Shown one piece after another: positions 23,821-50,563 of a stretch of DNA of 50,563 nucleotides (positions within the stretch are counted from its first letter, which is position 1; every line of letters starts with the position of its first letter). Source of the DNA: Deltaproteobacteria bacterium (lineage in GTDB: Bacteria; Desulfobacterota; DSM-4660; Desulfatiglandales; HGW-15); the NCBI GenBank assembly GCA_016930835.1, contig JAFGGA010000066.1:1-50563 (forward strand), written 5' to 3'. The translations under genes were made by a program, and so were the position numbers. The notes beneath the pieces were generated by a model. That model worked only from the letters and a program-made list of their open reading frames with translations, did no database searches and was not told the origin of the DNA.

Positions 23821-24003
23821 ATGAAGCTCAAAGGCAAAGCAGCAATCATCACGGGTGCCGGAAGGGGGTTAGGACGGTCTGTTGCCTTGGCCATGGCAAG
23901 ATAAGGAGCACGGGCAGCCTTGATAAGCCGTTCCTCGGATGAGCTCAAAGTCGTTAGGGATCAGATAGAGGCCTTGGGTGCAGAGGTTCTTATTTATAAA
24001 GGA
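23821..24003 (+). pseudogene. Truncated short-chain dehydrogenase (SDR) with nonsense codon
   Basis: Translation MKLKGKAAIITGAGRGLGRS VALAMAR carries the SDR nucleotide-binding motif TGxxxGxG. It then meets TAA where a Glu codon is expected (AREGA), and continues GARAALISRSSDELKVVRDQ and IEALGAEVLIYKGD. Homology stops there and the YHS-LDH gene begins. Only the first third of an SDR remains. An upstream TTG (23920) that would fuse the remnant to the next gene should not be used as that gene's start. Confidence 0.8.
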
Positions 24004-24012
24004 GATAAAGAC

Positions 24013-25116
24013 ATGACTACAGCGATAGACCCGGTTTGCGGCATGGAGGTGGAGCGAGATCAAGCATCTTACTCGATTACGTACCAGGGGAAGCCCTATT
24101 ATTTTTGCAGCGAAATCTGCAGGACAGCCTTTGAGAAGGACCCTCAAAAATATCTAAAGACCTTGGAAAAAGATAGGCTGGAAACCCGGAAGGTGGTGGT
24201 GGTCGGCGCAGGGCAAGTAGGGGCGACTTTTTCATTCGCGCTCATGTCAAGCGGTCTGGCATCCCATATTATTCTGGTGGACATTCATCCGGAGTTGGCC
24301 GAGGGCCATTCCATGGACCTCAATCATGGTTTATCTTTTGTGCAACCGACCATCATTCAATCCGGCGACTACTCGGAATGTAAAGGCGCTGATGTCGTCG
24401 TGGTAACCGCCGGTGCCGCTCAGAAGGAGGGAGAATCCAGACTGGATCTGGTTCGTAAAAATGCGGGAATCTTTAAAGAAATCATTCCTCAAATCACGGC
24501 CCATGATCCGGGTATATTGCTCATCGTCTCAAATCCCGTGGATGTGCTGACATATGTGGCCCTGAAAGTTTCGGGATATGCCATGAACCGGGTGATCGGC
24601 TCCGGCACATCCCTGGATACGGCGAGATTCCGGTTTCTCTTAAGCAGGCACTGTAAAGTGGACCCGAGAAATGTCCATGCCTATATTATCGGTGAACATG
24701 GGGACAGCGAGGTGCCTTTGTGGAGCCTGGTCAATATCGCGGGTGTCCCTTTTTTGGATTATTGCCCCGTATGTGGCAAGAATTGTTCGCCCCATGAAAG
24801 GGAAGATATCTTCAAGCAGGTCAAGAACGCGGCCTATGAGATTATCACTAAAAAGGGATACACCAATTTTGCCATTGCCCTGGCCCTGGTGCGGATAGTG
24901 GGCAGCATTATCCGGAACGAGAACAGTGTTCTCACGGTATCCACCTTGCTCGATCATTACCATGGTATCAAAGATGTTTGTTTAAGTATCCCCGTGATCC
25001 TGAATAGAAACGGTGTGTTTAAGCAGGTGCCCGTTGTGATGAATGAGACGGAAACAAAGGCATTACAGTCATCCGCGAAGACTTTGAAGGAAGTAATCGA
25101 TGAACTAGAGATATAA
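24013..25116 (+). CDS. YHS domain fused to L-lactate/malate dehydrogenase
   Basis: 367 residues. Residues about 5-48 are a YHS metal-binding domain (DPVCGMEV, then YYFCSEICRTAFEKDP). From about 60 onward is a full NAD-dependent lactate/malate dehydrogenase: VVVVGAGQVGATFSF, TAGAAQKEGESRLDLV, IVSNPVDVLTYVA and the catalytic IIGEHGDSE. Gln in AAQKEGESR is the lactate-type specificity residue (malate enzymes have Arg). A C-P-V-C-G-K-N-C cluster lies near residue 255. ATG 24013 has AAAGGAG upstream. It sits 3 bases before a copper ATPase, whose relatives often carry YHS domains, so copper or redox-sensitive control of lactate oxidation is possible but unproven. Confidence 0.88.
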   Translation: MTTAIDPVCGMEVERDQASYSITYQGKPYYFCSEICRTAFEKDPQKYLKTLEKDRLETRKVVVVGAGQVGATFSFALMSSGLASHIILVDIHPELAEGHSMDLNHGLSFVQPTIIQSGDYSECKGADVVVVTAGAAQKEGESRLDLVRKNAGIFKEIIPQITAHDPGILLIVSNPVDVLTYVALKVSGYAMNRVIGSGTSLDTARFRFLLSRHCKVDPRNVHAYIIGEHGDSEVPLWSLVNIAGVPFLDYCPVCGKNCSPHEREDIFKQVKNAAYEIITKKGYTNFAIALALVRIVGSIIRNENSVLTVSTLLDHYHGIKDVCLSIPVILNRNGVFKQVPVVMNETETKALQSSAKTLKEVIDELEI

Positions 25117-25119
25117 GAA

Positions 25120-27237
25120 GTGAATACATATATGGCGAAACATACGATGCATGAACAAGGCAAGCAGGATTTATCCGTCGATCACGGGCAGCAAGATGGT
25201 CGTGCCATGTCCGGTGATCATCGTACCATGAGCCATGGGGAACATGGGTCAGGCAAAGGTCATGCTGACCATAAAGACCACAAAGGCGGTGGCCATCACG
25301 CACACATGGCGGCTGATTTCAAAAGACGGTTTTGGATTTCGTTGATCTCCACTGTTCCCATTTTAATCCTTTCGCCTATGATTCAGTCCTTCCTGGGCTT
25401 TAAACAGGCATTCACATTTCCGGGGGATGCTTATGTGCTCTGGCTGTTATCTTCTTTTGTTTTCCTTTACGGCGGTTGGCCTTTCCTTAAAGGTCTGTTC
25501 GATGAACTGGGGAAAAAACAGCCCGGCATGATGACCCTGATCGCCATCGCCATTACCACCGCCTATGCATACAGCAGCGTGGTGGTGTTCGGTTTGAGCG
25601 GTAAGGTGTTTTTTTGGGAACTGGCAACCCTGATCGACATCATGCTCCTGGGTCACTGGATTGAGATGAAATCCGTAATGGGTGCATCCCGCGCCCTGGA
25701 AGAGTTGGCCGAACTCATGCCGTCAACGGCTCACTTGATCAAGTCCGATGGAAATATGCAGGAGGTTCCGGTGGAAAAATTGGGAGCCGGTGAACGGGTG
25801 TTGGTGAAGCCGGGAGAAAAGGTTCCCATGGACGGTGAGGTGGTGGAGGGAGAGAGTTCCGTTAACGAGGCCATGTTGACGGGTGAATCCAAACCCGTTG
25901 AAAAGACAGTCGGTTCCAAGGTCATCGGGGGTGCCGTCAACGGGGAAGGTTCCATAACCGTCGAAGTTCAAAAAACCGGTCAGGAATCATTCTTGTCGCA
26001 GACCATCGCGCTTGTGGAAGAGGCCCAGCAGAGCAAATCCCGAAGCCAGGATCTGGCCAACCGGGCCGCACTGTGGCTGACCATTATCGCCCTTTCTTGC
26101 GGAGCTATTACGTTGATTGTATGGTTTGCCTTTATGAGCAGGGATTTTGCCTTCTCATTGGAACGAGCGGTGACGGTGATGGTTATCACGTGCCCTCATG
26201 CCCTGGGGCTTGCCGTCCCCCTGGTGGTAGCCGTATCCACGGCATTGTCCGCTAAGAACGGCCTGTTGATCAGGGACAGGGCGTCGTTTGAAAGGGGCAG
26301 AAACATACAGGCGATCATCTTTGATAAGACCGGCACACTCACCAAAGGGGAATTCGGTGTGACGGATACGGTTGTTTTTCAAGACGACATGGATGAAAAC
26401 CAATTGCTCCAATATGCCGCTTCCGTAGAAACTCACTCGGAACATCCCATTGCAAAGGGGATCGCCGCCGCGGTGGAAAACCCATCGCAGGTAGAGGACT
26501 TTAAGTCTATCCCGGGGAAAGGGGCCCGGGGCCGGGTAGACGGAAAAGACGTACAGGTCGTCAGTCCAGGCTTCCTGAAGGAGAATGACATCGTCATGGA
26601 TGACGAGCGGATTGAAAAATTCAATTCTCAAGGAAAAACGGTTGTCTTTATCATTATGGATGGAGACCTCAAGGGGGCCATAGCCCTGGCGGATATCATT
26701 CGAGATGAGTCAAAAAAAGCCATCGCCGAACTCAAAGAAATGGGCCTGCGTTGTATGATGCTCACCGGAGACAACGAGCTGGTCGCCCAGTGGGTTTCCG
26801 AAGAAATCGGCCTGGACGAATATTTCGCGGAGGTCCTGCCAAAGGATAAGGCGGACAAGGTCAAAGAAGTGCAGGCAAGAGGCTTGGTCGTAGCCATGAC
26901 GGGTGACGGGGTCAATGACGCCCCGGCCCTTGCCCAGGCGGATATAGGGATCGCCATTGGTGCCGGTACGGATGTGGCCATCCAGACAGCGGACATCATT
27001 CTGGTCAGGAGTAATCCCATGGATGCAGTATCGATCCTGGGTCTCGCCCGAGCCACATACCGCAAAATGGTCCAGAATCTAGTGTGGGCCACGGGCTATA
27101 ACGCCTTTGCCATTCCCCTGGCGGCCGGTGTCTTCTATGGATACGGTGTGATTCTGTCACCGGCCATGGGCGCGGTTTTGATGTCGCTTAGCACAGTGAT
27201 CGTGGCCGTTAACGCCAGATTCTTGAAAATAGCTTAA
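25120..27237 (+). CDS. copB: CopB-type P1B copper-transporting ATPase
   Basis: 705 residues from GTG 25120 (701 from ATG 25132; both starts have weak ribosome binding sites). A His/Met/Gly-rich cytosolic N-terminus (about 5-65) precedes the membrane domain. Signatures: LTGES actuator loop, membrane CPH in [11 protein letters not shown], phosphorylation site [20 protein letters not shown], and the last helix [15 protein letters not shown] with a His-rich N-terminus defines the P1B-3/CopB group, which exports copper (or silver) ions from the cytoplasm. It follows the YHS-LDH gene directly. Confidence 0.93.
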
Positions 27238-27354: not shown

Positions 27355-28377
27355 ATGGCCCTTAAAAGTAATCATTCAAGAATCGTTATTCTCTGTGTTC
27401 TGCTTCTTGTGATTTTATTCCTGCACTATTTCACGCTCCATGATTTGGAGTTTCATCATGCAATTTACCGGACGTTGTTTTATTTGCCGCTTGTATTGGG
27501 AAGTTTTTGGTTCGGTTTAAAAGGAGCCGCTGGTGTCTCAATCTCCGTTATCCTTTTTTATCTTCCCTATGCAACCCTTCAATGGCAGGGCCTGCAGAGT
27601 GATTTTGAAGTGATACTGGAGGGAGGGCTGTATGTATTTATCGCCTTGATCCTTGGATACCTCGCCGAAAAAGAGAGAAAAGAACAGGCGGCGATGCGCC
27701 GTGTTGAAAAGTTGGCTGCGATTGGAAAAGCGGTATCCGAAATCGCCCATGACATGAAAACGCCTTTGATGACCATCGGTGGGTTTTCAAGGCAGGTGGA
27801 AAGGAACTTGAATGCGAAAAGTCTTGATCAAAAAAAGCTTAAAATCATCGTCAGTGAAACATCCAGACTGGAGTCCATGGTCAGGGAGATGCTGGATTTC
27901 GGCAAGCCGCTGGTGCTTAATCGTACGGAGATACAACTCAATGACATCGCTCAGGATTGTGTGACGATTGCGGAACCGGAGGCGAGAGAGGCCGGGATTA
28001 GATTAGAATTGCAGACGGATCCGTCATTGCCGCCTATAACTTTGGATAGATCCAGGGTCAAACAGGTTTTATTGAATCTTATTGTTAACGCCATACAGGC
28101 TTCTCCCCCCGGGGAAGAGGTTATTATCAGGACCAACATGCGAAAAGATTCGATGCGTGTAGAGGTCTCGGACCGTGGCCACGGGATCAGTGAAGATGGG
28201 GAGGAACGTGTTTTCGAGCCCTTTTTCACGACAAAAAGAAACGGAACCGGATTGGGACTATCCATTGTGAAACAGATAGTAGAGGCCCATGGGGGCGAGA
28301 TTTCTTTTTCCCGGAATTCCACGAAGGGGGTTACCTTCCGGGTATCATTGCCTTTCAATCAGCAGTCAGCCCGCTGA
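27355..28377 (+). CDS. Orphan membrane sensor histidine kinase
   Basis: 340 residues. Three to four N-terminal membrane helices (about 8-100) with almost no periplasmic domain, then a HisKA domain with phosphoacceptor in SEIAHDMKTPL (about residue 131) and a HATPase domain: NLIVNAIQASP (N box), DRGHGISEDGEERVFEPFFTTK and GTGLGLSIVKQIVEAHGG. The layout resembles ZraS/AtoS-type kinases that pair with sigma-54 response regulators. No response regulator is within the window. It stands just before the electron-conduit genes in the same direction and could control them. Confidence 0.9.
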   Translation: MALKSNHSRIVILCVLLLVILFLHYFTLHDLEFHHAIYRTLFYLPLVLGSFWFGLKGAAGVSISVILFYLPYATLQWQGLQSDFEVILEGGLYVFIALILGYLAEKERKEQAAMRRVEKLAAIGKAVSEIAHDMKTPLMTIGGFSRQVERNLNAKSLDQKKLKIIVSETSRLESMVREMLDFGKPLVLNRTEIQLNDIAQDCVTIAEPEAREAGIRLELQTDPSLPPITLDRSRVKQVLLNLIVNAIQASPPGEEVIIRTNMRKDSMRVEVSDRGHGISEDGEERVFEPFFTTKRNGTGLGLSIVKQIVEAHGGEISFSRNSTKGVTFRVSLPFNQQSAR

Positions 28378-28429: not shown

Positions 28430-28921
28430 TTGAATCGAAATCAATGGGTATTCCGATCGACGTTTTTCGCTCTCGCGGCTTTTTTGGTTCCTGGACTCCA
28501 TATGCTTTCTGCACAGGACAAAGGCGGTTATCACTGTATATTAACCGACGACGGGCAAAGGATATCGGCTGAGGCCGCGTTTCGGCCTGATGAAGATGAA
28601 CTTAATCTGCATTATGTGGTTGACGTCCGAAACGTAGCGGATATCACCATGGCACATCTTCATCTCGGAGACATGTACAAAGTCAATACCGCCGTCTTGT
28701 GGCTCTATCCGTCAGGACCTCCGCCGAAATTGATTCCGGGAGTATTCAACGGTATCCTCGCCGAAGGAACCGTTACCGCTAAAGACCTGTTGGGACCCCT
28801 TCGCGGACAATCACTTTCAGCGTTGATGAGGGAAATGCGGGCCGGTCGCATTTATGTGAATCTTCATACCATGGAGCACCCGGAAGGGAGTATTTGCGGT
28901 GTAGTTAGTTTGGTTGAGTGA
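28430..28921 (+). CDS. Exported CHRD-domain protein
   Basis: 163 residues: a signal peptide (about 1-27, ending LSAQD), then a CHRD domain. Typical elements are ISAEAAFRPDEDELNLHYVVDV, MAHLHLGDM, GVFNGILAEGTVTAKDLLGPL and IYVNLHTMEHPEGSICGVV. CHRD domains occur in envelope and surface proteins. TTG start with AGAGGAGG 5 bases upstream. It is the first gene of the apparent conduit operon, and its placement suggests a periplasmic or surface accessory role. Confidence 0.85.
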   Translation: MNRNQWVFRSTFFALAAFLVPGLHMLSAQDKGGYHCILTDDGQRISAEAAFRPDEDELNLHYVVDVRNVADITMAHLHLGDMYKVNTAVLWLYPSGPPPKLIPGVFNGILAEGTVTAKDLLGPLRGQSLSALMREMRAGRIYVNLHTMEHPEGSICGVVSLVE

Positions 28922-28972
28922 TAACACTGATTGTCAATCAGCAATTCGGAACAGCTATCCAAAAGGCAACCG

Positions 28973-29752
28973 GTGAAAAAAATTCAGAAAAAAATGGTGC
29001 TGATCCTTACCCTTGTTTTTTCCTTGGTGATCATTGCGTGTGCCACCGAGTTATATAGGAAATCCGGAATCCCTATAGTTGGTATTCAAGGGGCAGATTA
29101 TATGGGTTGGGAGAGTTGTGACTTGTGTCACGAACAGAAGGTGAAAGATTTCGTCTACATGGTACATGGTCGTCTCTGGATTGCCGGAAATCAAGATCAA
29201 CCCGGGATTCCGGTTTGTGAAGCCTGTCACGGACCAGCCAGCCTCCATGTGGAAGCCGGAGGAGGGCGAGGAGTCTATATCCTCAATCCCGGCAAAAAGC
29301 CCGAAGTCTGCTTTCAATGTCATACGTCTATACAAGCGCGATTGCGTCTGCAATACCATCATCCGGTCAAGGAGGCTGTCATATTCTGTACGGACTGTCA
29401 TAACCTCCATGGTGAAAATATTTACAGCGTCAAAGAGATGCCCATTAGCCGTGGAAATACCGTTTGTATGCAATGCCATAGGGAACAGACAAGGCCCCGG
29501 GTTTTCGAGCATGAAGCGCTCCGGGACGGCTGTACGATATGTCATCATGCACACGGTTCCATCAATGACAAGATGCTCATTGAAAGGGATAATAATCTTT
29601 GTCTCAAATGTCATGCTCAACTAGGAACGCCCGGTACCGTAACAATCGGGGATTTTCCACATACAACACGTCTGATGGAGGGCACTTGTTGGAGTGTGGG
29701 GTGTCATACCGCGGTTCATGGGTCCAATATCAATTCACATCTTCGATATTAG
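28973..29752 (+). CDS. Octaheme c-type cytochrome, probable lipoprotein (DmsE/cytochrome c3 superfamily)
   Basis: 259 residues from GTG 28973 (AAAGG 6 bases upstream; a TTG at 28931 gives 14 more). A lysine-rich start and hydrophobic stretch end in VIIAC, a plausible lipobox. Haem sites in order: CDLCH, CEACH, CFQCH, CTDCH, CMQCH, CTICH, CLKCH, and a final CWSVGCH, which is CX4CH. The abundance of spare histidines supports bis-His haems. The GxxSCxxCHxxxxxxF opening resembles DmsE/MtrA-type cytochromes that sit inside outer-membrane porins. The next gene is such a porin, supporting a cytochrome-porin conduit. Confidence 0.88.
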   Translation: MKKIQKKMVLILTLVFSLVIIACATELYRKSGIPIVGIQGADYMGWESCDLCHEQKVKDFVYMVHGRLWIAGNQDQPGIPVCEACHGPASLHVEAGGGRGVYILNPGKKPEVCFQCHTSIQARLRLQYHHPVKEAVIFCTDCHNLHGENIYSVKEMPISRGNTVCMQCHREQTRPRVFEHEALRDGCTICHHAHGSINDKMLIERDNNLCLKCHAQLGTPGTVTIGDFPHTTRLMEGTCWSVGCHTAVHGSNINSHLRY

Positions 29753-29762
29753 AGGGTGGCAA

Positions 29763-31769
29763 ATGGCCACTTCGAGATTACAATTTTCACTCTTGCTGTT
29801 CTTCGGGGCGTTACTGACTTCCACAACAGGGTCGTCTCAAGGGGGTGACGGGCCATCAACCGTTGATTCTGTTACCCCCGCTCTTTATGGTTCTGTGATC
29901 AACGGTGACGAGGGGAAATATCAGGAGGATTGGTGGACTTCGGATGGTTGGTCAGGTGGGCTGGAAAAACTTTCTTTCTCGGATACTTATGAGGATGATG
30001 TTTTCATGTCATTGGAAGGCCGGGTGATCGTTCCGGATAAGGACTATCTCATCAAGATGGATGTTAAACGACCGGAGACGGTTTTCTTTCGTGTAGGGTA
30101 CTCAGAACGTCGGAAGTATTATGACGGCACCGGCGGTGGTTTTATACCTTTTCATATGCACCCTTTTGAGTTACGGAAAGACTTACATCTGGACATCGGT
30201 CATTTTTATTTGGAGGCGGGACTGGATATCCCCGATAAGCCCAGCATAACGGCTGCTTATGAACATCGATTTAAAGATGGAGATAAATCTTCCACGGAGT
30301 GGGGAGCTGTTACACTGAACGGTACGACGAGGAATATCTTTCCGTCTTTTAAATCCATCGATGAAGAGGTGGATATTTTACGGATCAAAGTCGATCATGC
30401 GATCGGCGGGATTTACGTGATCGATACGCTCCAATATGAACGCTATAACGCTGATATAACAAAGTTTGAAGAAGAACGGAACCTGGATACCCAAAGCGTT
30501 GAGACCATCAAGGTTAATGAAAGTAATGATCATGACGCTTTTTTCAATACATTTTATCTAGAGAAACAATTCAATAAACGATTCTTTTGGTCGATGGGCT
30601 ATCTTTTCACTCACCTTGATGGAAGCAGCGGCTTCCATATGCAGACCCTTCCATTCGGGCCCGATCCCTTTGATAAGGCGTGGACGGCACAGCGGATTTC
30701 CGTTGACCGGGAGGCGCATGTCATTAACAGTAGTATCCGGATCGGACCTTATGCGAATGTCCACTTTTACGGCGGTATCCAGGCTGAAACCAATGAAACA
30801 AACGGGGATACGGACGCCGTATTGACCGAGACCGATTTCGGCGGAACCGCGGTTTCGCCTGAGGCGGTCATTTCCACTCAATCGAAGAAGGACGGCTTAG
30901 AGGAGACGGCCGGGATTCGCTATACGGGTTTGGTGTATACGACTGCCTATGTGGAGGGGAAATGGGTTCAGTCCGGAACTGATTTGTCGGAAACCGAGGT
31001 TGAAGATGGTGTGTTGGGTTTTAGGCGCCAAACGGATGCGGAAGTGAATCGGGAACAATACAGCTTTGGAATCAACACCTCGCCTTTCAGAAATTCAACG
31101 TTCTCCGTACGTTACCGTGAAGGCCGGCGTAATAACGATTATAACCACGTCGCCGACACAGAGCCCGGGTACTCGGCGTTTATTACGGATCAGACGATCA
31201 ATAAGGATGATGTCAGCGTCCGTTGGACGCTTCGACCGGCCTCCATGCTGCAATGGTCGTTATCCTATCGATTTTTGACCGTAGAGATGGAAACCCGGTC
31301 GGATACGGGGGCATCCGGGTCGATCCTTTCAGGGGCTTATGAGGCAAACGTTTATAGTACGGGATTCACTTTAACACCCCATTCAAAAATATACTTCACG
31401 GGACGATTCTCTTATCATGACGCTGAAACAACTTCTTTTCAGAATAATATCCCCTCCGTTCTCACCTTCAAAGGGGATGTGTTTGAAATGTTACTCACCT
31501 CCGGATTTGCAGTCAATCGACACACAAACTTGAATGTTGAATACCTTTTTTCCCGCTCGGAGAATTTCGAAAACTATTCATCCGATGGGCTTCCCTTTGG
31601 GCTGAACAACAAAAGAAACGGAGTTCTCGCCTCTCTTTCGCGTAGTATCGGAGAAAAAATTGTCATAGGCCTTCGCTATGCTTACTATCGCTATGATGAG
31701 GAAAATATCCGGGAGGTCGATAACTATGAAGCTCACCTATTTGGGGCGGAACTGGAATTCAAATTTTAG
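29763..31769 (+). CDS. Large outer-membrane beta-barrel porin (MtrB/PioB-like conduit)
   Basis: About 669 residues with a signal peptide (about 1-25, LLLFFGALLTSTTGSSQ). The rest is dominated by alternating polar/hydrophobic strands and short turns, ending in AELEFKF with terminal Phe, the Bam-recognition type ending. I see no cysteine, so the N-terminal CXXC of Shewanella MtrB is missing. Size and position next to a periplasmic multiheme cytochrome fit the MtrB/PioB-type sheath, but sequence identity to that family cannot be judged by eye. ATG 29763 follows GAGGGTGG; an earlier in-frame ATG (29694) lies inside the cytochrome gene. Confidence 0.78.
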   Translation: MATSRLQFSLLLFFGALLTSTTGSSQGGDGPSTVDSVTPALYGSVINGDEGKYQEDWWTSDGWSGGLEKLSFSDTYEDDVFMSLEGRVIVPDKDYLIKMDVKRPETVFFRVGYSERRKYYDGTGGGFIPFHMHPFELRKDLHLDIGHFYLEAGLDIPDKPSITAAYEHRFKDGDKSSTEWGAVTLNGTTRNIFPSFKSIDEEVDILRIKVDHAIGGIYVIDTLQYERYNADITKFEEERNLDTQSVETIKVNESNDHDAFFNTFYLEKQFNKRFFWSMGYLFTHLDGSSGFHMQTLPFGPDPFDKAWTAQRISVDREAHVINSSIRIGPYANVHFYGGIQAETNETNGDTDAVLTETDFGGTAVSPEAVISTQSKKDGLEETAGIRYTGLVYTTAYVEGKWVQSGTDLSETEVEDGVLGFRRQTDAEVNREQYSFGINTSPFRNSTFSVRYREGRRNNDYNHVADTEPGYSAFITDQTINKDDVSVRWTLRPASMLQWSLSYRFLTVEMETRSDTGASGSILSGAYEANVYSTGFTLTPHSKIYFTGRFSYHDAETTSFQNNIPSVLTFKGDVFEMLLTSGFAVNRHTNLNVEYLFSRSENFENYSSDGLPFGLNNKRNGVLASLSRSIGEKIVIGLRYAYYRYDEENIREVDNYEAHLFGAELEFKF

Positions 31770-31872
31770 AAATATTCATTCGTCTCTATGCGGATCAGGG
31801 GGAGGCATTGGACGACGTAAAACCGTTTACGGTGTTGTGAATAGCCTTTCCATACTATAAGGGGAGGATTTT

Positions 31873-32238
31873 ATGATGATCAGGACCATCTTGCTTTTAT
31901 CCGTGCTTTTACATTCAAGTCTCATGTTTGGAAATGTCGTAAGCGATGGAATCCGGGAAATGGACGGTAACGTGTTTAAATTGCAAAGGGAATCAGCGAC
32001 GGAACAAAACGGCGATAAAGATGTGACATGGTTCAAGGATCAACTAAAGATTTCATCCAAATATCAGGAAAGGGAAAGAGGTATATTCGGACTTTCATGG
32101 CCCCACTTCATAACCATGATTTTTTTGATTTGCTCAATGATCATAGCCCTGGTAGCGATGGTTGTACGTCACAGAAGGACCAAAGAGCTTTTGAACTTAT
32201 TATTAAAGGAGGAAAAAGAAGATGGAATAAAGAGTTGA
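31873..32238 (+). CDS. Small exported/membrane protein of the conduit cluster
   Basis: 121 residues: a signal peptide (about 1-22), a hydrophilic periplasmic stretch (about 25-75), one membrane helix (HFITMIFLICSMIIALVAMVV, about 78-98) and a basic, charged cytosolic tail. GGGGAGG precedes ATG 31873. Its last 17 bases overlap the original start of the ferredoxin gene. No family recognised; topology suggests an inner-membrane anchored accessory subunit. Confidence 0.7.
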   Translation: MMIRTILLLSVLLHSSLMFGNVVSDGIREMDGNVFKLQRESATEQNGDKDVTWFKDQLKISSKYQERERGIFGLSWPHFITMIFLICSMIIALVAMVVRHRRTKELLNLLLKEEKEDGIKS

Positions 32239-32488
32239 ATTCAGAGGGTCGAATCAAATATTGGAATGGGACGACCGGTTTGAGAGCCTTCTGGAACTGG
32301 CAGAAAAAAATGGTGTCGAAATTGAAAGCATCCGCCGACAGGGGGTTTGTGGATCATGTCAAACAAGACTCATTTCAGGTAGAGTTGAGATGGAGATGAA
32401 AGACGGCCTGCATGGACCCGATCGCGAACGAAATATGATCCCCCCGTGTGTCTCTATTCCGAAAATGGATATTAGTCTGGAGGTGTGA
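32222..32488 (+). pseudogene. [2Fe-2S] plant-type ferredoxin, apparently damaged
   Basis: The natural start appears to be ATG 32222, 9 bases after GGAGG. That frame reads Met-Glu-stop (TAA at 32228), then continues RVEFRGSNQILEWDDRFESL with LELAEKNGVEIES, an uninterrupted ferredoxin beginning. The cluster motif normally C-x4-C-x2-C reads R-R-Q-G-V-C-G-S-C: the first ligand is Arg (CGC, one base from TGC). The last ligand is kept in PPCVSIPK. Two independent lesions argue for decay. If TTG 32261 is used, a 75-residue three-cysteine protein could still be made. Intact, it would pass electrons between soluble donors and the cytochrome b module. Confidence 0.7.
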
Positions 32489-32492
32489 GCCC

Positions 32493-33218
32493 ATGTTCAG
32501 AGGCAAAAACGTGTATATCTTCCTTGCTGTTTTTTTAATGGTCTTGGTTCTTAGAAGCTTTATTCAGGAAGGCCCCGATTTTGCCGGAACCATGACGGGA
32601 CATTTGATTGGGATCGCGGGAACCCTGCTGATTTTTTCAGTTTTACAGTATCCCTTTAAAAAGCGGATCATGAAACGTAAGGGGAAGTCGAATCCTCTCA
32701 ACAAGCATATCTCCTATGGTTTGATCGGTCCTTCTCTTGTGGTCATCCATTCGGCCCATACACATGGAAGTCCGATAGGCATATTATGTTTTTTCGCCAT
32801 GGTTTTTTTGGTCCTAAGCGGGATTGTGGGTATGTTTCTTTTTCAGAGGATCAGCCGGACGGTCAAGGAGCAGACTAAGGATTTGAATGCGCTTAGAAGA
32901 TTTTTTAAAAGTCATCGGAATGATATGGTTTTTTGTCGTAATTACTTCGATATGGAACCAAATGGTTCAAGCCGTCAAACTGTGAATGAAGAGACAGGAG
33001 AAACCATTACTGAACAGATTGTAAAAGACCGGTGTGACGAAATGGTGAATCTGGCTCACTCTATTGCGGAGACGGAATATTCTCTTTTGGTTTTTGACAA
33101 GACCAAAACCATTTTTTCGAAGTGGATCTACGCGCATTATATATTGGCCGCATTTCTTTTTTCCATGATTATTATCCATGTTTTAAACGCGTTATATTAC
33201 GGCGTGAGATGGCTATAA
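32493..33218 (+). CDS. Membrane b-type cytochrome-like subunit
   Basis: 241 residues, four predicted membrane helices (about 8-27, 38-57, 72-110 region, 210-232). Histidines sit in helices: GHLIGIAG, VVIHSAHTHG, and the last helix has YAHYILA and IIIHV 14 residues apart, suitable for bis-His b-haem ligation. A large hydrophilic loop (about 120-205) separates helices 3 and 4. GGAGG at 32479-32483 supports ATG 32493. Between a ferredoxin and a heptaheme cytochrome it is likely the quinone- or ferredoxin-coupled membrane module of the chain. The family assignment is by topology, not by a named motif. Confidence 0.68.
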   Translation: MFRGKNVYIFLAVFLMVLVLRSFIQEGPDFAGTMTGHLIGIAGTLLIFSVLQYPFKKRIMKRKGKSNPLNKHISYGLIGPSLVVIHSAHTHGSPIGILCFFAMVFLVLSGIVGMFLFQRISRTVKEQTKDLNALRRFFKSHRNDMVFCRNYFDMEPNGSSRQTVNEETGETITEQIVKDRCDEMVNLAHSIAETEYSLLVFDKTKTIFSKWIYAHYILAAFLFSMIIIHVLNALYYGVRWL

Positions 33219-33823
33219 CCCGAAAAATAATACCATTGATCATCATCGCGGGTTTTCTTGTGTTCTCAGGGTGGCTTTTTCAACATGATAAAGCCGCAGA
33301 GCCTGGAACGTTGAGTCCTTTTCATCGTGAATTAGATGATTGCACATACTGCCACGAACCATGGAAAGGTGTTTCCGAAGAGAGGTGTCTGGATTGCCAT
33401 TATTTCGATGATACTGAGGACCTTAGGAGAGAGATCCGTTTTCACGAAGTAGGCCGGGGATGCATGTCTTGCCACAAAGAACATGGACGTTTAGAGGGCG
33501 GCATCACAAAGATGGACCATACACTGCTCAATGAGGAGTTGCTTTGTTCGCGATGTCACTTTGATCCCCATGAAAAACTTTTCGGAGAAAATTGCAGAGA
33601 TTGTCATGGTATTCGAACCTGGGCCATAAAGGGGTATGAACATCCTGCGCCGGATCGAACAAACTGCAGTCGGTGTCACAAAGGTCCTGCTTCTCACTAT
33701 GACGAGCGATTTTGGAAAATTATTTTGGAGGACGTGGGGGACGGACCCGCATCTCCGAATGATTGTTGGCGATGTCACACCATATTCCATTGGCCTCATT
33801 TACGACAAATAAATCGTTCATAG
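33209..33823 (+). CDS. Membrane-anchored heptaheme c-type cytochrome
   Basis: 204 residues. An N-terminal hydrophobic helix (about 6-23) serves as signal or anchor, then seven CXXCH sites: CTYCH, CLDCH, CMSCH, CSRCH, CRDCH, CSRCH and CWRCH. Additional histidines (HKEHG, MDHTL, FHWPH) can be distal ligands. ATG 33209 overlaps the end of the cytochrome b gene, indicating translational coupling. In the proposed chain it would accept electrons from the b-type subunit at the inner membrane and hand them to the octaheme lipoprotein. Confidence 0.9.
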   Translation: MAITRKIIPLIIIAGFLVFSGWLFQHDKAAEPGTLSPFHRELDDCTYCHEPWKGVSEERCLDCHYFDDTEDLRREIRFHEVGRGCMSCHKEHGRLEGGITKMDHTLLNEELLCSRCHFDPHEKLFGENCRDCHGIRTWAIKGYEHPAPDRTNCSRCHKGPASHYDERFWKIILEDVGDGPASPNDCWRCHTIFHWPHLRQINRS

Positions 33824-33900: not shown

Positions 33901-34819
33901 ATGAACCGGACAAATTATGATGTGATTATTTTGGGCTCCGGACCGGCAGGGCTACAAGCCGCCATACATGCGACACGCAGGCAGGTGAAGATCCTGGTGA
34001 TGGGCAGGGTACAAAAAAGCAGTGCATTTAAAGCGCATATTGAAAATTATTGTTGTATCAGCGGCGATACCGGTAACGAGTTACTGGAGCAGGCACAATA
34101 CCGGGCCAGGGAATCCGGTGCGGCTTTTCTGAATGAGGATGCAACGAACGTGTCCCGAAATAATGACATTTTCACCATTGAATCGGAGGGAGGCCAAAAA
34201 TTAACATGTGGTGCCCTTATTCTGGCAATGGGGATATCCAGAAATAAATTGAGCATAAGGGGCGAAAATGCATTTATCGGGCGCGGTATAAGTTATTGTG
34301 TGGACTGTGACGCGGGCTTTTACAAGAACGAGCCTGTAGCGATGATCGGCGGAGAGAGTGCCGCAAGTCACCGGCGCATTGACGCTTCTTTCTTACACAA
34401 AGGATGTGCATCTTATTTGTGAAAGGTTGAAGGTGGCTGATTATCTGGCCGAGAAAATACGAAAAAGCGCAATTCATATCCATGAAAACCGCAAGGTCAC
34501 CGAAATTCTGGGGGAAGAATCCGTGAATGGGTTGATCCTGGATAACGGTTTGCGATTGGATGTGAAGGGTATTTTTATCGAGTTAGGGGCCAAGGGGGCT
34601 GTAGCTCTGGGAAGCGGTTTGGGAGGGGCCCTCGACCCGGAGACCATGAAATTCATCTCAACCAATAAAAAACAGGAGACCAATGTTCCGGGCGTATATG
34701 CCGCGGGTGATATTTGCGGACCACCCTGGCAGGTGGCCAAAGCGGTCGGGGAAGGATGCGTGGCCGGTCTGGAAGCGTCTGGTTATGCCGGAAGAATAAA
34801 AGTAAGTCCTTCATTATAA
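33901..34819 (+). pseudogene. Thioredoxin-reductase-like flavoprotein with a single-base frameshift
   Basis: The first part (33901-34422) has the FAD fold ILGSGPAGLQAA, the redox pair CVDC, and enters the NADPH fold VAMIGGESAA. There the frame is lost at GCAAGTC near 34367. Removing one A restores VTGALTLLSYTKDVHLICER in the second part, which runs to 34819 and has the FAD-contact motif GVYAAGDICG. Joined, the product would be about 305 residues, normal for the TrxB family. GGGGGA precedes the start. Either a recent mutation or a sequence error; translation of the tail could start at GTG 34358. Confidence 0.82.
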
Positions 34820-34936: not shown

Positions 34937-35407
34937 ATGAAAAAAACATTATGGTTATCGATAATCTTTATCGTCGTTGGAGGACTTGGCCTAATGGCCC
35001 TTTACGCGCATCCGACAGGTTCCAGCATGATGGGACCGGGGTATGGTTCCCAACAACAAGGTGACTGGAACTATTGCCCGTATTGTGGGAGTCATTTGAG
35101 CGGCGGATACGGCATGATGGGACCCGGTATGATGGGTCGAGGCTATTATGGTATGATGGGGCCCGGCATGATGGGACCGGGTTACGGATACAGACAGCCG
35201 TATCAGCCTCAGGAACCCATGAGTGAAATGGACGCAAAACAGATCCTGCAAAACTACCTTCAATTCACGAGAAATCCAAACCTGAAACTCGGTAAAATTG
35301 AAGATAAAGAACAATATTTTGAGGCGGAGATCGTGACCAAAGAAGGTTCCCTCGTGGATAAGGTCACCGTTGATAAAATGACGGGCTTTGTACGAAGCAT
35401 ATATTGA
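34937..35407 (+). CDS. Exported Met/Gly-rich protein with CPYC motif
   Basis: 156 residues: a signal peptide (about 1-25), a YCPYCGSHL knuckle (about 46-54), then tandem GPGMMG/GMMGPG repeats (about 57-85), then a globular tail (about 95-156) with a PepSY-like pattern (EDKEQYFEAEIVTKEGSLVDKVTVDKMTG). Methionine-rich periplasmic segments commonly bind copper(I), and a CopB ATPase lies 8 kb upstream, so metal handling is plausible. The repeat is visible at DNA level as recurring GGCATGATGGGACC-type units at about 35110-35180. AAGGGGG precedes the start. Confidence 0.75.
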   Translation: MKKTLWLSIIFIVVGGLGLMALYAHPTGSSMMGPGYGSQQQGDWNYCPYCGSHLSGGYGMMGPGMMGRGYYGMMGPGMMGPGYGYRQPYQPQEPMSEMDAKQILQNYLQFTRNPNLKLGKIEDKEQYFEAEIVTKEGSLVDKVTVDKMTGFVRSIY

Positions 35408-45269: not shown

Positions 45270-47036
<1,767 letters not shown>

Positions 47037-47044
<8 letters not shown>

Positions 47045-47351
47045 GCAAAAGCTAACGGAAAGGCCGGGAAGGAGAGATCAGCGCTTCAGTGAAGACGTCG
47101 GAGCCAAGGAAGGACGAAAAATTCGAGCCCGGAAGGAAAGAGACCGCGGCGTCTGGTTCGGCCTAGGCATGTTCGGGTTGGTGGGTTGGTCGGTCGCCAT
47201 ACCCACGGTCATTGCCGTGGCATTGGGGGTCTGGATCGACAAGACCTGGCCTGGACCCTACTCATGGACGTTGATGTTGCTCTTCATCGGAGTGGTACTG
47301 GGCTGTTTAAATGCCTGGTATTGGGTCAAGCGGGAAAGCCATCGTGAATGA
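47037..47351 (+). CDS. atpQ: N-ATPase AtpQ (AtpI-like) membrane protein
   Basis: 104 residues from GTG 47037 (GGAGG 9 bases upstream). A basic cytosolic N-terminus (about 1-45) is followed by two membrane helices, GWSVAIPTVIAVALGVWIDK and LMLLFIGVVLGCLNAWYWV. This is the AtpI/AtpQ pattern, thought to help c-ring assembly and Mg2+ handling. Overlaps atpC and the next gene. Confidence 0.85.
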
Positions 47352-47526
47352 ATATGAATTGAATTATCCATATCACATTATCCTGGTGGGCGGTCTGATC
47401 ATGCTGATCATGTTCCTCAGGGCATGGATGTTGCCTAATGACGTAGGTCCTGGGATCGGGGTTCGTGCTTTTGTTGCGGCGCATACCCTTTTAAAACGCT
47501 GGCCCCGGAAAGGAGCAGATACATGA
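47344..47526 (+). CDS. Extra small membrane protein in the N-ATPase operon
   Basis: 60 residues from GTG 47344: one membrane helix (about 9-28, HIILVGGLIMLIMFLRAWML) and a basic tail. It overlaps atpQ by 8 bases and atpR by 4, so it is translationally embedded in the operon. The usual N-ATPase order goes directly from atpQ to atpR, so this looks like an additional subunit or assembly factor. Not recognised. Confidence 0.65.
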   Translation: MNEYELNYPYHIILVGGLIMLIMFLRAWMLPNDVGPGIGVRAFVAAHTLLKRWPRKGADT

Positions 47527-47876
47527 TATTTGATGTCGGTTCATTCATCAAGATATTCGGCTTCGGCCTGGGAGTAGGGGGTATCTATTTCAGCGGTTTA
47601 TGGTGGACGGTCAAACGGCTTCCACGGGTCAGGCGGCAAGGCATCTGGCTGATAAACAGCATGGTGGTTCGTTTATTATTTTTACTTGCTGCGTTTTATT
47701 GGATCATGGATGGAAAATGGCAAAATTTGCTGACCGGTTTGTTCGGATTCATGATGATGCGTTTGATTACGGTAGCTATCCTGAGACCACGGGAAGCTTT
47801 GCCCGTGGATAGGCCTCGTGATCGTTCTGGAAATCCAAAAACTATTCAATCCGGCGCGATAAAATGGACTTCATGA
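47523..47876 (+). CDS. atpR: N-ATPase AtpR membrane protein
   Basis: 117 residues with three membrane helices. SGLWWTVKRLPR after helix 1 and NSMVVRLLFLLAAFYWIMDG are typical AtpR features. The protein is N-ATPase-specific and proposed to assist ring assembly. Arg near NSMVVR in the second helix is conserved in this family as I recall it. Overlaps atpB by 13 bases. Confidence 0.82.
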   Translation: MIFDVGSFIKIFGFGLGVGGIYFSGLWWTVKRLPRVRRQGIWLINSMVVRLLFLLAAFYWIMDGKWQNLLTGLFGFMMMRLITVAILRPREALPVDRPRDRSGNPKTIQSGAIKWTS

Positions 47877-48574
47877 ACCTTAAACAGATCAGTCCTGACC
47901 AGGTGGTATTTCTGGAATGGGGTTTTTTTCAAATCAATGCCACTATTGTCTTTACTTGGGGCGTTATAGCGCTCCTTGTGATCGGTTCATGGCTGATCAC
48001 CCGAAATTTAACCACGGGAACGCGTATTCCCCGATGGCAGAACCTGCTGGAAATCGTGGTGGATTACATGCAAAAGGAGATACGGCAAATCAGTCAGCAA
48101 CAAGCGGGGACGTATCTGTATTTCGTGGGGACCCTGTTTCTGTTCATAATAGTGTCCAACCTTCTGGCCGTTATCCCCGGCTATATCGTGCCGACGGCCT
48201 CACTTTCAACAACCACCGGGTTGGCCATCTGTGTGTTTATCGCCGTTCCGATTTACGGGATCTTGAATCGAGGATTTTTAGGATATCTACACCAGTATAT
48301 AGAACCTACCCCGTTCATGTTGCTTTTCAACATCCTGGGTGAGCTATCCAGGACATTGGCCCTTGCAGTGAGATTGTTCGGAAACATGATGAGCGGGATG
48401 AAGGTGGTCGCCATCCTGCTGGCCCTGGCGCCGTTATTTTTCCCGATCCTCATGCACGCGCTGGGTCTGTTGACGGGAGTTATTCAAGCATACATTTTTG
48501 CGGTGCTCGCCATGGTTTATATTGCATCGGGAACCAGGGTCCGGAGGGAAAAAGAAAGGAAAAGCAGTCCGTAG
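47864..48574 (+). CDS. atpB: N-ATPase F0 subunit a
   Basis: 236 residues, about five to six membrane helices. The essential stator Arg is in ELSRTLALAVRLFGNMMSG (about residue 172) and the last helix QAYIFAVLAMVYIASG is typical. It forms the ion half-channels next to the c-ring. ATG 47864 (MDFMNLKQ) or ATG 47873 could be the start. Confidence 0.93.
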   Translation: MDFMNLKQISPDQVVFLEWGFFQINATIVFTWGVIALLVIGSWLITRNLTTGTRIPRWQNLLEIVVDYMQKEIRQISQQQAGTYLYFVGTLFLFIIVSNLLAVIPGYIVPTASLSTTTGLAICVFIAVPIYGILNRGFLGYLHQYIEPTPFMLLFNILGELSRTLALAVRLFGNMMSGMKVVAILLALAPLFFPILMHALGLLTGVIQAYIFAVLAMVYIASGTRVRREKERKSSP

Positions 48575-48663
48575 GGCTGGATTTTATATCCCGCCAAAAA
48601 CAGATGTCAGTATATCGGTACCCATTACCTAATAGCTAAATATAACAGAAGGGAGACAAAATT

Positions 48664-48942
48664 ATGGATAATATCGGTTTAATCGGCATGGCATCGGTGA
48701 TTACCGCCGGTTTGTGTATGGGCATCGGGGCCATCGGTCCGGCTTTGGGGGAAGGCCGCGCCGTATCGCAAGGGCTTGCATCCATCGCCCAGCAGCCGGA
48801 TGAGACCAACAGGATCACAAGGACCCTATTCGTGGGTTTGGCCATGATCGAGTCCACGGGGATCTATGCGTTTGTGATCTCTATGATCATTCTTTTCGCA
48901 AATCCCTTTTGGGATCATCTGATAAGCAACACCGGGGGATAA
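48664..48942 (+). CDS. atpE: N-ATPase F0 subunit c, predicted Na+-type
   Basis: 92 residues, two-helix hairpin. Ion-site residues: Glu30 in ALGEGRA on helix 1 and Glu63-Ser64-Thr65 with Tyr68 in MIESTGIYAF on helix 2. EST..Y on helix 2 is the Na+-binding signature known from Ilyobacter-type rings, and the second carboxylate on helix 1 is typical of N-ATPases. GGGAG precedes ATG 48664; an 89-base spacer with period-7 words separates it from atpB. Confidence 0.93.
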   Translation: MDNIGLIGMASVITAGLCMGIGAIGPALGEGRAVSQGLASIAQQPDETNRITRTLFVGLAMIESTGIYAFVISMIILFANPFWDHLISNTGG

Positions 48943-48944
48943 TT

Positions 48945-49721
48945 ATGCTGATCGATTGGTTTACCGTCATCGCCCAGATCGTCAATTTTTTGATTCTGGT
49001 ATTCCTCCTTAAGCACTTTCTCTATGACCGAATCATTCAGGTCATGGACCAGCGTGAGCAAAAAATACAATCGCGAATGAAAGACGCGAAGGACAAGGAG
49101 ATAGAAGCGGAAAAAGAAGCGGCGTCTTATCGTGAAAAAAAGGAATCCATCGAACGGGAACGGCAGGATATGTTGACCAAGACCCGCGAAGAAGCTGAAA
49201 CGCAGCGAAAAGAAATGACTCGCAAGGCACGCGATGAAGTGCAGGGTTTGAGAAAACAATGGACGGACTCCATTGAAAGGGAAAAAGATACATTTTTGAG
49301 TGATTTAAGGAGATTGACCATACAACAGGTCTATTCCGTTTCGCGTAAGACCATGAAGGATTTGGCTGATGCGGAACTGGAAGAACGCGTGGCGGAAGTG
49401 TTTTTATCCCGCATCCGGGATCTTCCCGAAGATAGGCGTAAGGCACTGAATGAAGCCATGAACCACAAAAAGACAGCCGTTGTCAAAAGTGCGTTTGAGC
49501 TGCCCACCGCGTTGCGTCAAAAAACCACCAAGACGCTTCATCATGAAATAGGCGACGGTGTTGACGTCTCCTATCAAACCGATCCGGATATGATCATGGG
49601 TATCGAGCTGAAGGCGGGGGGACAAAAAATCGCATGGACGGTTGCGGATTATCTGGAGTCTTTGGAGAATGAGGCAAAAGAGGCCTTGGAAAAGGAAACG
49701 GAAAAGGGAGAAACCGGATAA
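48945..49721 (+). CDS. atpF: N-ATPase F0 subunit b with delta-like C-terminal domain
   Basis: 259 residues, longer than an ordinary b subunit. One N-terminal membrane helix (IAQIVNFLILVFLLKHFLYD), a long charged coiled coil (about 30-130), and a C-terminal domain (about 150-245) with a delta/OSCP-like ending (DPDMIMGIELKAGGQKIAWT). The fusion replaces the separate atpH, which is missing from N-ATPase operons. ATG 48945 starts 3 bases after atpE. Confidence 0.9.
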   Translation: MLIDWFTVIAQIVNFLILVFLLKHFLYDRIIQVMDQREQKIQSRMKDAKDKEIEAEKEAASYREKKESIERERQDMLTKTREEAETQRKEMTRKARDEVQGLRKQWTDSIEREKDTFLSDLRRLTIQQVYSVSRKTMKDLADAELEERVAEVFLSRIRDLPEDRRKALNEAMNHKKTAVVKSAFELPTALRQKTTKTLHHEIGDGVDVSYQTDPDMIMGIELKAGGQKIAWTVADYLESLENEAKEALEKETEKGETG

Positions 49722-49724
49722 AGC

Positions 49725-50563
49725 ATGAGCCGACAGGATCAAACATCACAAATTTTCATACCGCTATTGACGCATACTTTTGATATCCTGGACCAAGCGC
49801 TGGCCGATCATTCGCCCTCACTGGAGATCCGGGACGTGGGAACCATAACATTTGTAGGTTCTGGCATCGTCCATGTTTCCGGATTGCGGGGTGTCCGATC
49901 GGAAGAATTGATTCGCTTCAACAACGACCGGCTGGGAATGGTTTTTAACACCGATCCCAAAGAAATCGGTGTGGTGCTGCTGGATGAAAGCGATGATCTG
50001 AACGCGGGCGATGAAGTCATACGAATGGATCGCGCTTTGCAGACGCCGGTGGGAGAGGCATTGATCGGTCGGGTCATGGATGCCCAGGGACGTCCTTTAG
50101 ATAATAAAGGCCCCATACGAACCGGTCATTCTTATCCCGTGGAAAGACCCGCCCCTTCCATTATGGATCGATCTCCTGTCACGGTACCGCTTCAAACGGG
50201 AATCAAGGTCGTGGATGCCCTCATTCCCATTGGACGGGGACAGCGGGAACTCATCATCGGTGACCGCCAGACTGGAAAAACAGCGATCGCCGTGGATACC
50301 ATCATCAACCAGCAAGAGGGGGATGTCATTTGCATCTACTGCGCCGTAGGCAAACAGGCCAGCGCAGTGGCCAAGGTCATCGCCGATTTGCAAAAAAATC
50401 GATCCATGAGTTATACCATGGTGGTTGTATCCACGGAAGAAGATCCCCCCGGGATGCAGTTCATTACCCCTTATGCGGCCATGAGCATGGGGGAATATTT
50501 TATGGAGCAAGGAAAAGATGTCCTGTTGGTTCTGGATGATCTGACCCGCCACGCACGCGCTTA
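49725..50563 (+). CDS. atpA: N-ATPase F1 alpha subunit, partial at the window edge
   Basis: Starts ATG 49725, 4 bases after atpF, and runs off the window after about 279 codons. Regulatory nucleotide-binding subunit: LIIGDRQTGKTAIAVD (Walker A), VDALIPIGRGQRELI and QFITPYAAMSMGEYFM are visible. The gamma subunit gene (atpG) should follow outside the window. Confidence 0.93.
   Translation, partial: MSRQDQTSQIFIPLLTHTFDILDQALADHSPSLEIRDVGTITFVGSGIVHVSGLRGVRSEELIRFNNDRLGMVFNTDPKEIGVVLLDESDDLNAGDEVIRMDRALQTPVGEALIGRVMDAQGRPLDNKGPIRTGHSYPVERPAPSIMDRSPVTVPLQTGIKVVDALIPIGRGQRELIIGDRQTGKTAIAVDTIINQQEGDVICIYCAVGKQASAVAKVIADLQKNRSMSYTMVVVSTEEDPPGMQFITPYAAMSMGEYFMEQGKDVLLVLDDLTRHARA

Follow-up and report, generated by a model that had tools for sequence, protein, structure and literature searches.

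A predicted octaheme branch of the MtrAB conduits, linked to a CHRD protein and copper export genes, in a Desulfobacterota genome

Gene content of the locus

The locus described here lies in a 50,563-nucleotide stretch of DNA, referred to below as the window (contig JAFGGA010000066.1 of assembly GCA_016930835.1, C116 in our numbering), from a 4.70-Mb deltaproteobacterial metagenome-assembled genome (MAG) of 95.5% completeness. The genome carries a dsrA gene scoring over the curated cut-off, which by gene content makes the host a sulfite or sulfate reducer. Seven reading frames on the + strand encode a CHRD protein, an octaheme cytochrome, a large outer-membrane barrel, a small membrane protein, a [2Fe-2S] ferredoxin, a membrane cytochrome b and a heptaheme cytochrome (Table 1). 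This is the order given by the initial annotation of the DNA, which had proposed a compact trans-envelope electron conduit. The gene list and order were borne out, but the ferredoxin gene is probably disrupted and the set is longer downstream, where a flavoprotein gene follows. Gene sets from this cluster are kept together in other genera at 41–59% identity, indicating that the cluster is not due to chance.

Table 1. Coordinates in the window of the conduit cluster and its neighbours, with the basis of each assignment.
Feature	Coordinates	Strand	Basis
YHS-domain/lactate-malate dehydrogenase fusion, metal-handling neighbourhood	23920..25116	+	Pfam YHS 3.3e-16, Ldh_1
Copper-type P1B ATPase (CPH motif)	25120..27237	+	TIGR01511, 630 bits vs cut-off 397
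Membrane sensor histidine kinase	27355..28377	+	HisKA/HATPase_c; 53 nucleotides upstream of CHRD
Exported CHRD protein, predicted fold like superoxide dismutase	28430..28921	+	PF07452, E 5.6e-12
Octaheme MtrA-family putative lipoprotein	28931..29752	+	7 CXXCH + CX4CH; MtrA 6r2q_A match
Predicted 26-strand MtrB-like outer-membrane barrel	29763..31769	+	AlphaFold2, Foldseek 6r2q_B, hhalign MtrB/PioB 99.5%
Small protein, putative anchor of [2Fe-2S] subunit	31873..32238	+	Signal, short periplasmic stretch, one transmembrane helix
[2Fe-2S] ferredoxin gene, probably disrupted	32222..32488	+	Fer2 PF00111 8.1e-8; compared with intact homologues
Five-helix transmembrane di-haem b-type cytochrome	32493..33218	+	HX13H in helices 3 and 5, SGXXG in helix 4
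Heptaheme cytochrome c, N-terminal signal/anchor	33209..33823	+	7 CXXCH; Cytochrome_C7/CIII
TrxR-like flavoprotein (FAD/NAD(P)H) with a frameshift near 34366	33901..34819	+	TIGR01292-like; 62-64% identity to intact homologue

The octaheme cytochrome and its outer-membrane barrel

The last of the eight predicted haem sites of the octaheme protein is the CX4CH motif, which reads CWSVGCH. Because C253, C258 and H259 were invariant in 22 homologues, and one homologue has CXXCH at this position, the eighth site very likely does bind haem. All eight sites were kept across these 22 proteins. Translation is likelier to begin at a GTG (28973), which yields a lipoprotein signal with a lipobox (..IIAC), in agreement with the putative lipoprotein first annotated. 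Comparison with solved MtrA (6r2q_A, which is the MtrA chain, the PDB molecule name in the search table being wrong) gave a phmmer E-value of 2.3e-31, improving to 7.7e-45 with the octaheme protein as a profile, and on these alignments the protein is classed as an MtrA homologue. The best NCBIfam match was the GSU2203 decaheme protein of the NF041028/NF041027 pair (4.2e-46, 157.6 bits vs a cut-off of 325), and a resemblance to DmsE (TIGR03508, E 2.4e-42) was also below cut-off.

The barrel gene, with its start set at 29763, encodes a protein whose own sequence matched nothing in Pfam, NCBIfam or the PDB. An AlphaFold2 model from a 19-sequence alignment, with a mean predicted local distance difference test (pLDDT) score of 86.8, contained 26 long strands as counted manually from the DSSP list, consistent with the large outer-membrane barrel originally called. 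Foldseek placed MtrB (6r2q_B) as the top solved neighbour of this model (E 9.2e-13, TM-score 0.65), and the next class consisted of TonB receptors (E 4.7e-9, TM-score about 0.45). The initial annotation had suggested a profile comparison with MtrB/PioB, and in hhalign the barrel family aligned end to end with 20 such proteins (99.5%, E 3.9e-23, 627 of 680 columns), in comparison to 89.9%, E 1.7e-6 and 234 columns for control TonB-receptor barrels and 6% for reversed MtrB. PF11854 (MtrB_PioB) touched 3 of the 19 family members weakly (best 0.0033) and the GSU2204 NCBIfam profile touched 7 of the 19 (best 4.3e-6). In one further genome of the phylum (G086), a single locus with an 8-haem partner was matched both by PF11854 (1.9e-7) and by the window barrel (1e-18). 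The profile-profile score indicates distant homology to MtrB despite the sub-cut-off PF11854 scores, and by predicted fold and profile the barrel is MtrB-like rather than an unrelated transporter, the alternative that the initial annotation had raised against itself.

Distribution of the octaheme-barrel pair

A scan of 84,980 species genomes recovered barrel relatives at 21 loci in Desulfobacterota/Desulfuromonadales and in Verrucomicrobia and Omnitrophota MAGs, and no relatives were found in the viral contigs searched. These loci hold 23 barrel reading frames, 22 of which have an octaheme gene directly upstream, the exception starting at a contig edge; the co-occurrence across genomes that the initial annotation expected was therefore found. 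At the PF11854 loci of the phylum, the partner had exactly 10 CXXCH motifs in 27 of the 29 loci having a partner. Set against each other, these counts indicate that eight haems are a stable character of the branch, and the outer-membrane part of the locus is best classed, by homology and modelled fold, as a divergent octaheme branch of the MtrAB superfamily and not as an unrelated conduit. The suggestion of a distinct conduit type holds in the sense of such a divergent branch, but the branch belongs to the MtrAB superfamily, and both surface-cytochrome-free conduits and an octaheme-porin pair had already been described.

Other genes accompany the pair outside the close relatives of the window. 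At L010:7584-9077 and L027:7555-9051 (Desulfuromonadales), the cytochrome b and heptaheme module is replaced by an upstream gene for an NrfH-like membrane protein (E 1e-11) with 6 haems, and a homologue of this protein also lies near an Omnitrophota pair (L025). Downstream of the Omnitrophota barrels (L019:2399-4470; L025:13401-15053) lie genes resembling, on sequence reading alone, those for a Rieske protein and a cytochrome b, which suggests a pair with a bc-type feed. Verrucomicrobia barrels (L013-L018, L021, L023, L024, L028) have an N-terminal extension with one CXXCH and the look of a planctomycete-type cytochrome, and such a barrel may itself hold haem.

The inner-membrane module

Genes for the small protein, the [2Fe-2S] protein, cytochrome b and the heptaheme cytochrome occur together in the window and in three related genomes (G029, G031, G051), and the same module with a damaged [2Fe-2S] gene is found in G033. 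The cytochrome b motifs listed in Table 1 were kept in 5 of 5 homologues, and the heptaheme gene adjoins the cytochrome b gene in all homologous loci. The features of all three proteins other than the ferredoxin agreed with their first annotation. A match of the heptaheme protein to ExtN/ExtO (2e-6) was far under cut-off and was put down to CXXCH bias.

In a distant copy from another order (G343) the anchor is fused to the [2Fe-2S] domain. In G318, also of another order, one chain (L090:2259-3725, - strand) carries anchor, FNR-type flavin and [2Fe-2S] domains, the FNR assignment being a reading of the sequence and not a profile search, and this fused chain adjoins cytochrome b and heptaheme genes in a NOX-like transmembrane electron module. 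The TrxR-like flavoprotein gene adjoins the inner module in the window and in G051, where it lies upstream. Taken together, the fusions and the adjoining flavoprotein suggest a path from a cytoplasmic donor such as NAD(P)H through flavin and [2Fe-2S] to two b haems and the heptaheme protein, and they point to NAD(P)H as the electron source.

Close homologues of cytochrome b and of the barrel were found in the same 4 of 395 genomes of the phylum, and among 61 relatives each was present in five genomes, four of them shared. With the MtrB-like barrel, the MtrA homologue and the presence of the pair across phyla, this co-occurrence gives good support to the trans-envelope conduit first proposed.

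Damage to the ferredoxin and flavoprotein genes

The window ferredoxin gene starts ATG GAA TAA AGA GTT GAA TTC, with a stop at codon 3, where intact homologues have ATG-xxx-xxx-xxx-GTT-GAA-TTC, and its first cluster cysteine (CxxGxCGxC in homologues) is an arginine (CGC). In the G033 copy the start frame is lost and the codon of the first cluster cysteine is TGA, so that in two genera (window 32222-32488; L030:13443-13192, - strand) the same cysteine and the start are hit in ferredoxin frames that are otherwise open. In G010, 25 ferredoxin codons are left and no cytochrome b was found, while the three related genomes named above have intact ferredoxin genes. The flavoprotein gene of the window carries a 1-nucleotide frameshift, and the identity to its intact homologue (Table 1) is spread over two frames. 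Damaged and intact ferredoxins shared about 55% protein identity, similar to that between intact copies, which indicates either recent damage or sequence error. The window ferredoxin is probably not intact, and probably either the inner module is impaired in this genome or the MAG contains errors. On a reading of the sequence, selenocysteine in place of the first cysteine at the G033 TGA was not favoured, as that copy has also lost its start frame, and a programmed +1 frameshift joining the small protein and ferredoxin was rejected because intact copies overlap identically, so that the overlap is an inherited layout.

These lesions can also be interpreted as marking an inner-membrane module that is a decaying remnant in this organism, outside any working conduit. 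The nonsense codon and lost ligand, the flavoprotein frameshift and the state of the G033 and G010 loci agree with decay, but the cytochrome b, heptaheme and small protein genes are intact, ferredoxin is intact in three relatives, and in a MAG, lesions of one base may be errors. We regard decay as doubtful, although of the competing explanations it survives best. The initial claim that the module feeds the conduit keeps its support from co-occurrence of the two, but not in the form of a clean feed in this genome.

The CHRD protein and its copper export neighbours

Export of the CHRD protein at the start of the cluster is supported by a signal peptide, as first annotated. The surface position also ascribed to it is unsupported, since the protein has no lipobox. 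Residues H76-x-H78, H146, H150 and C36/C156 were invariant in the alignments. A model from three sequences (pLDDT 79.6) had only Cu/Zn superoxide dismutases (SODs) among its top 50 solved matches, all of them weak (best E 0.005, TM-score about 0.45), and by sequence the protein matched solved chordin at E 0.4 at best. The HxH motif and two more invariant histidines are candidates for part of the Cu/Zn SOD ligand set, and a copper site cannot be read from the model. The protein would be an exported, SOD-like and probably metal-binding accessory. Human CHRD domains have been described with a SOD fold and without a metal site (PMC13382577).

The CHRD-octaheme-barrel triad was present in 5 of 5 close loci (window, G010, G029, G031, G033), and copper or heavy-metal export genes adjoin every one of them: a Cu P-type ATPase lies beside the conduit in the window, G010 and G033, and in G029 and G031 the barrel is followed directly by CusA/CusB/TolC genes. 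All but G010 have a sensor kinase gene close either to the conduit or to the cytochrome b module, and in G033 a partial homologue of the YHS/dehydrogenase fusion stands beside the Cu ATPase. The Desulfuromonadales, Verrucomicrobia and Omnitrophota loci examined had no CHRD match, and our literature search returned no match joining CHRD and multiheme cytochromes. At 34937-35407 the window also encodes an exported protein that is rich in Met, carries MMGPG as a repeated motif and has a homologue in the G033 island; by composition alone it looks copper-binding.

The linkage of CHRD to copper export is an observation, from which functional coupling may be inferred. One explanation would be a copper-linked conduit, in which electrons pass to or from surface copper for copper detoxification and CHRD replaces MtrC as a copper-binding redox partner. 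The exporters at all five CHRD loci, the lack of an exporter neighbour in the stretch examined at two Desulfuromonadales loci without a CHRD match, and the SOD-like histidines are consistent with it. However, the fold match is weak, the human domains keep the fold without the metal site, and resistance genes often share islands without functional coupling. We consider a copper-linked conduit unlikely and a copper redox role of CHRD in the conduit unlikely at best, whereas a broader role as metal-binding partner can be put forward tentatively. The most elaborate version, an octaheme MtrAB branch with copper-binding CHRD in place of the surface cytochrome, exchanging electrons with copper in a copper-stress system of sulfate-reducing Desulfobacterota and supplied by a NOX-like chain of NAD(P)H, flavin, [2Fe-2S], cytochrome b and heptaheme protein, appears quite improbable.

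Comparison with known conduits

MtrAB, PioAB and MtoAB share with the window locus the 26-strand MtrB fold and adjacent genes for barrel and periplasmic MtrA-family multihaem cytochrome. They differ in the ten CXXCH motifs of MtrA, in comparison to seven CXXCH and one CX4CH here, and in the PF11854 match, which for MtrAB is over the cut-off. MtrCAB, known in Desulfobacterota (PMC12133095), has MtrC where the window has CHRD and the b/heptaheme module, while PioAB and MtoAB likewise have no surface cytochrome. No surface decaheme MtrC was found in the window, with the remaining genome surveyed in part: a codon scan for CXXCH gave 403 sites vs 120 for the reversed pattern, the first 100 places were listed and two 8-haem proteins were examined. 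The protein encoded at L087:570-1868 (G000 contig C61) is 432 aa long, begins like a rhodanese and has 8 CXXCH motifs.

The Geobacter OmaB-OmbB-OmcB system, whose proteins were reported as non-homologous to MtrABC (PMC6344600), also combines a periplasmic octaheme protein with a porin, but OmcB is a surface cytochrome and the window has no OmcB-like gene. The GSU2203-GSU2204 pair, the best NCBIfam match both for the octaheme protein and for 7 of the 19 barrel relatives, has a decaheme cytochrome. In the OetABI/OmcKL system of syntrophic sulfate-reducing bacteria, the OetI barrel is accompanied by the extracellular cytochrome OetB (PMC10553843).

The Verrucomicrobia porin-multihaem clusters, called novel in 2017 and not homologous to the Shewanella and Geobacter systems (PMC5615132), have in common with the window a large porin beside an eight-haem periplasmic cytochrome. 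They differ in having neither CHRD nor the ferredoxin/cytochrome b/heptaheme module and, in some clusters, in having an extracellular multihaem cytochrome (MHC). The Verrucomicrobia loci from our scan held homologues of both octaheme protein and barrel, with barrels 25–34% identical to that of the window, and at the level of the published description they fit the Trout Bog system.

PCC4 (PMC5566968) shares a porin, several periplasmic MHCs, an Fe-S protein, the absence of an extracellular MHC, and a five-helix membrane protein with two HX13H motifs and SGXXG, whose tryptophan in helix 3 is absent from the window family. Its MHCs have 4, 5 and 10 haems and its Fe-S protein belongs to pfam13247, in contrast to a plant-type [2Fe-2S] protein (Fer2) and cytochromes with 8 and 7 haems here; the comparison covers the MHCs, the Fe-S protein and the five-helix protein.

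Apart from the conduit, open reading frames alone suggest an F-type ATPase operon at window 45276-50563, with the beta subunit first in an N-type ATPase-like order.

Proposed electron path

In our preferred explanation, the octaheme lipoprotein would be plugged in the MtrB-type barrel and would carry electrons between the periplasm and the cell exterior. That the two proteins form such a trans-outer-membrane wire is highly probable. The inner module would pass electrons from a cytoplasmic flavoprotein, and ultimately from NAD(P)H, through the [2Fe-2S] protein, the di-haem cytochrome b and the heptaheme protein to periplasmic haems, from which the octaheme protein would take them outward, with CHRD as an accessory. 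In this MAG, the disrupted [2Fe-2S] and flavoprotein genes imply that electrons would have to reach the conduit either from menaquinol via cytochrome b or from other periplasmic cytochromes, unless the module is decaying. The explanation draws on homology, fold, haem sites, conserved gene pairing and co-occurrence, and we infer the outward direction, the docking between modules and of the octaheme protein in the barrel, the final acceptor and the role of CHRD.

Several points weigh against this explanation. The ferredoxin and flavoprotein genes are both disrupted in the window as read, and the window barrel scores under the Pfam and NCBIfam MtrB cut-offs (PF11854 / TIGR03509). The four genomes in which cytochrome b and barrel co-occur all belong to one order, so that this is an association that may reflect shared ancestry. 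The two modules lie on different contigs in G029 and are convergent in G033, and thus need not be one machine. That they form one chain is favoured by a narrow margin only, the outward direction is somewhat better favoured, and an MtrAB-type conduit with an inner feed module is, as a whole, rather probable.

Flow in the opposite direction has been proposed for PioAB, MtoAB and PCC4. Here a sulfate reducer would draw electrons into its periplasm from Fe(II), a partner cell or an electrode, and such uptake would suit a locus without a surface cytochrome, a genome with dsrA as sink and a cytochrome b like that of PCC4 (PMC5566968). However, the NAD(P)H, flavin and [2Fe-2S] end of the inner module suits outward flow, and reaching NAD(P)H would cost energy, which leaves uptake unlikely. 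That the MtrAB-type pair supplies an extracellular terminal reductase, as DmsEF does for DmsAB, is very improbable: the octaheme protein resembles DmsE, but no molybdopterin or other exported reductase gene was seen beside the locus and CHRD has no known reductase activity.

Conclusions

Conduits without a surface cytochrome (PioAB, MtoAB, PCC4), an octaheme-porin pair in Verrucomicrobia and MtrCAB in Desulfobacterota were already known; new are the assignment of the octaheme branch to MtrAB, the spread of this branch and the association of CHRD with copper export. The Verrucomicrobia-type octaheme porin system had been reported to have no relation to known conduits; by homology and predicted fold it can now be tied to the MtrAB superfamily, and the branch is present in sulfur-respiring Desulfobacterota and in Omnitrophota MAGs. 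It is important to note that a recent Desulfobacterota survey discarded genomes without a full MtrCAB and proteins of the wrong haem number (PMC12133095), a filter that would have passed over the octaheme branch. The constant link between CHRD and copper export offers a directly testable idea, that of a non-cytochrome partner at the outer membrane. Should the homology alone hold, the octaheme branch would still be a useful extension of a known kind of conduit.

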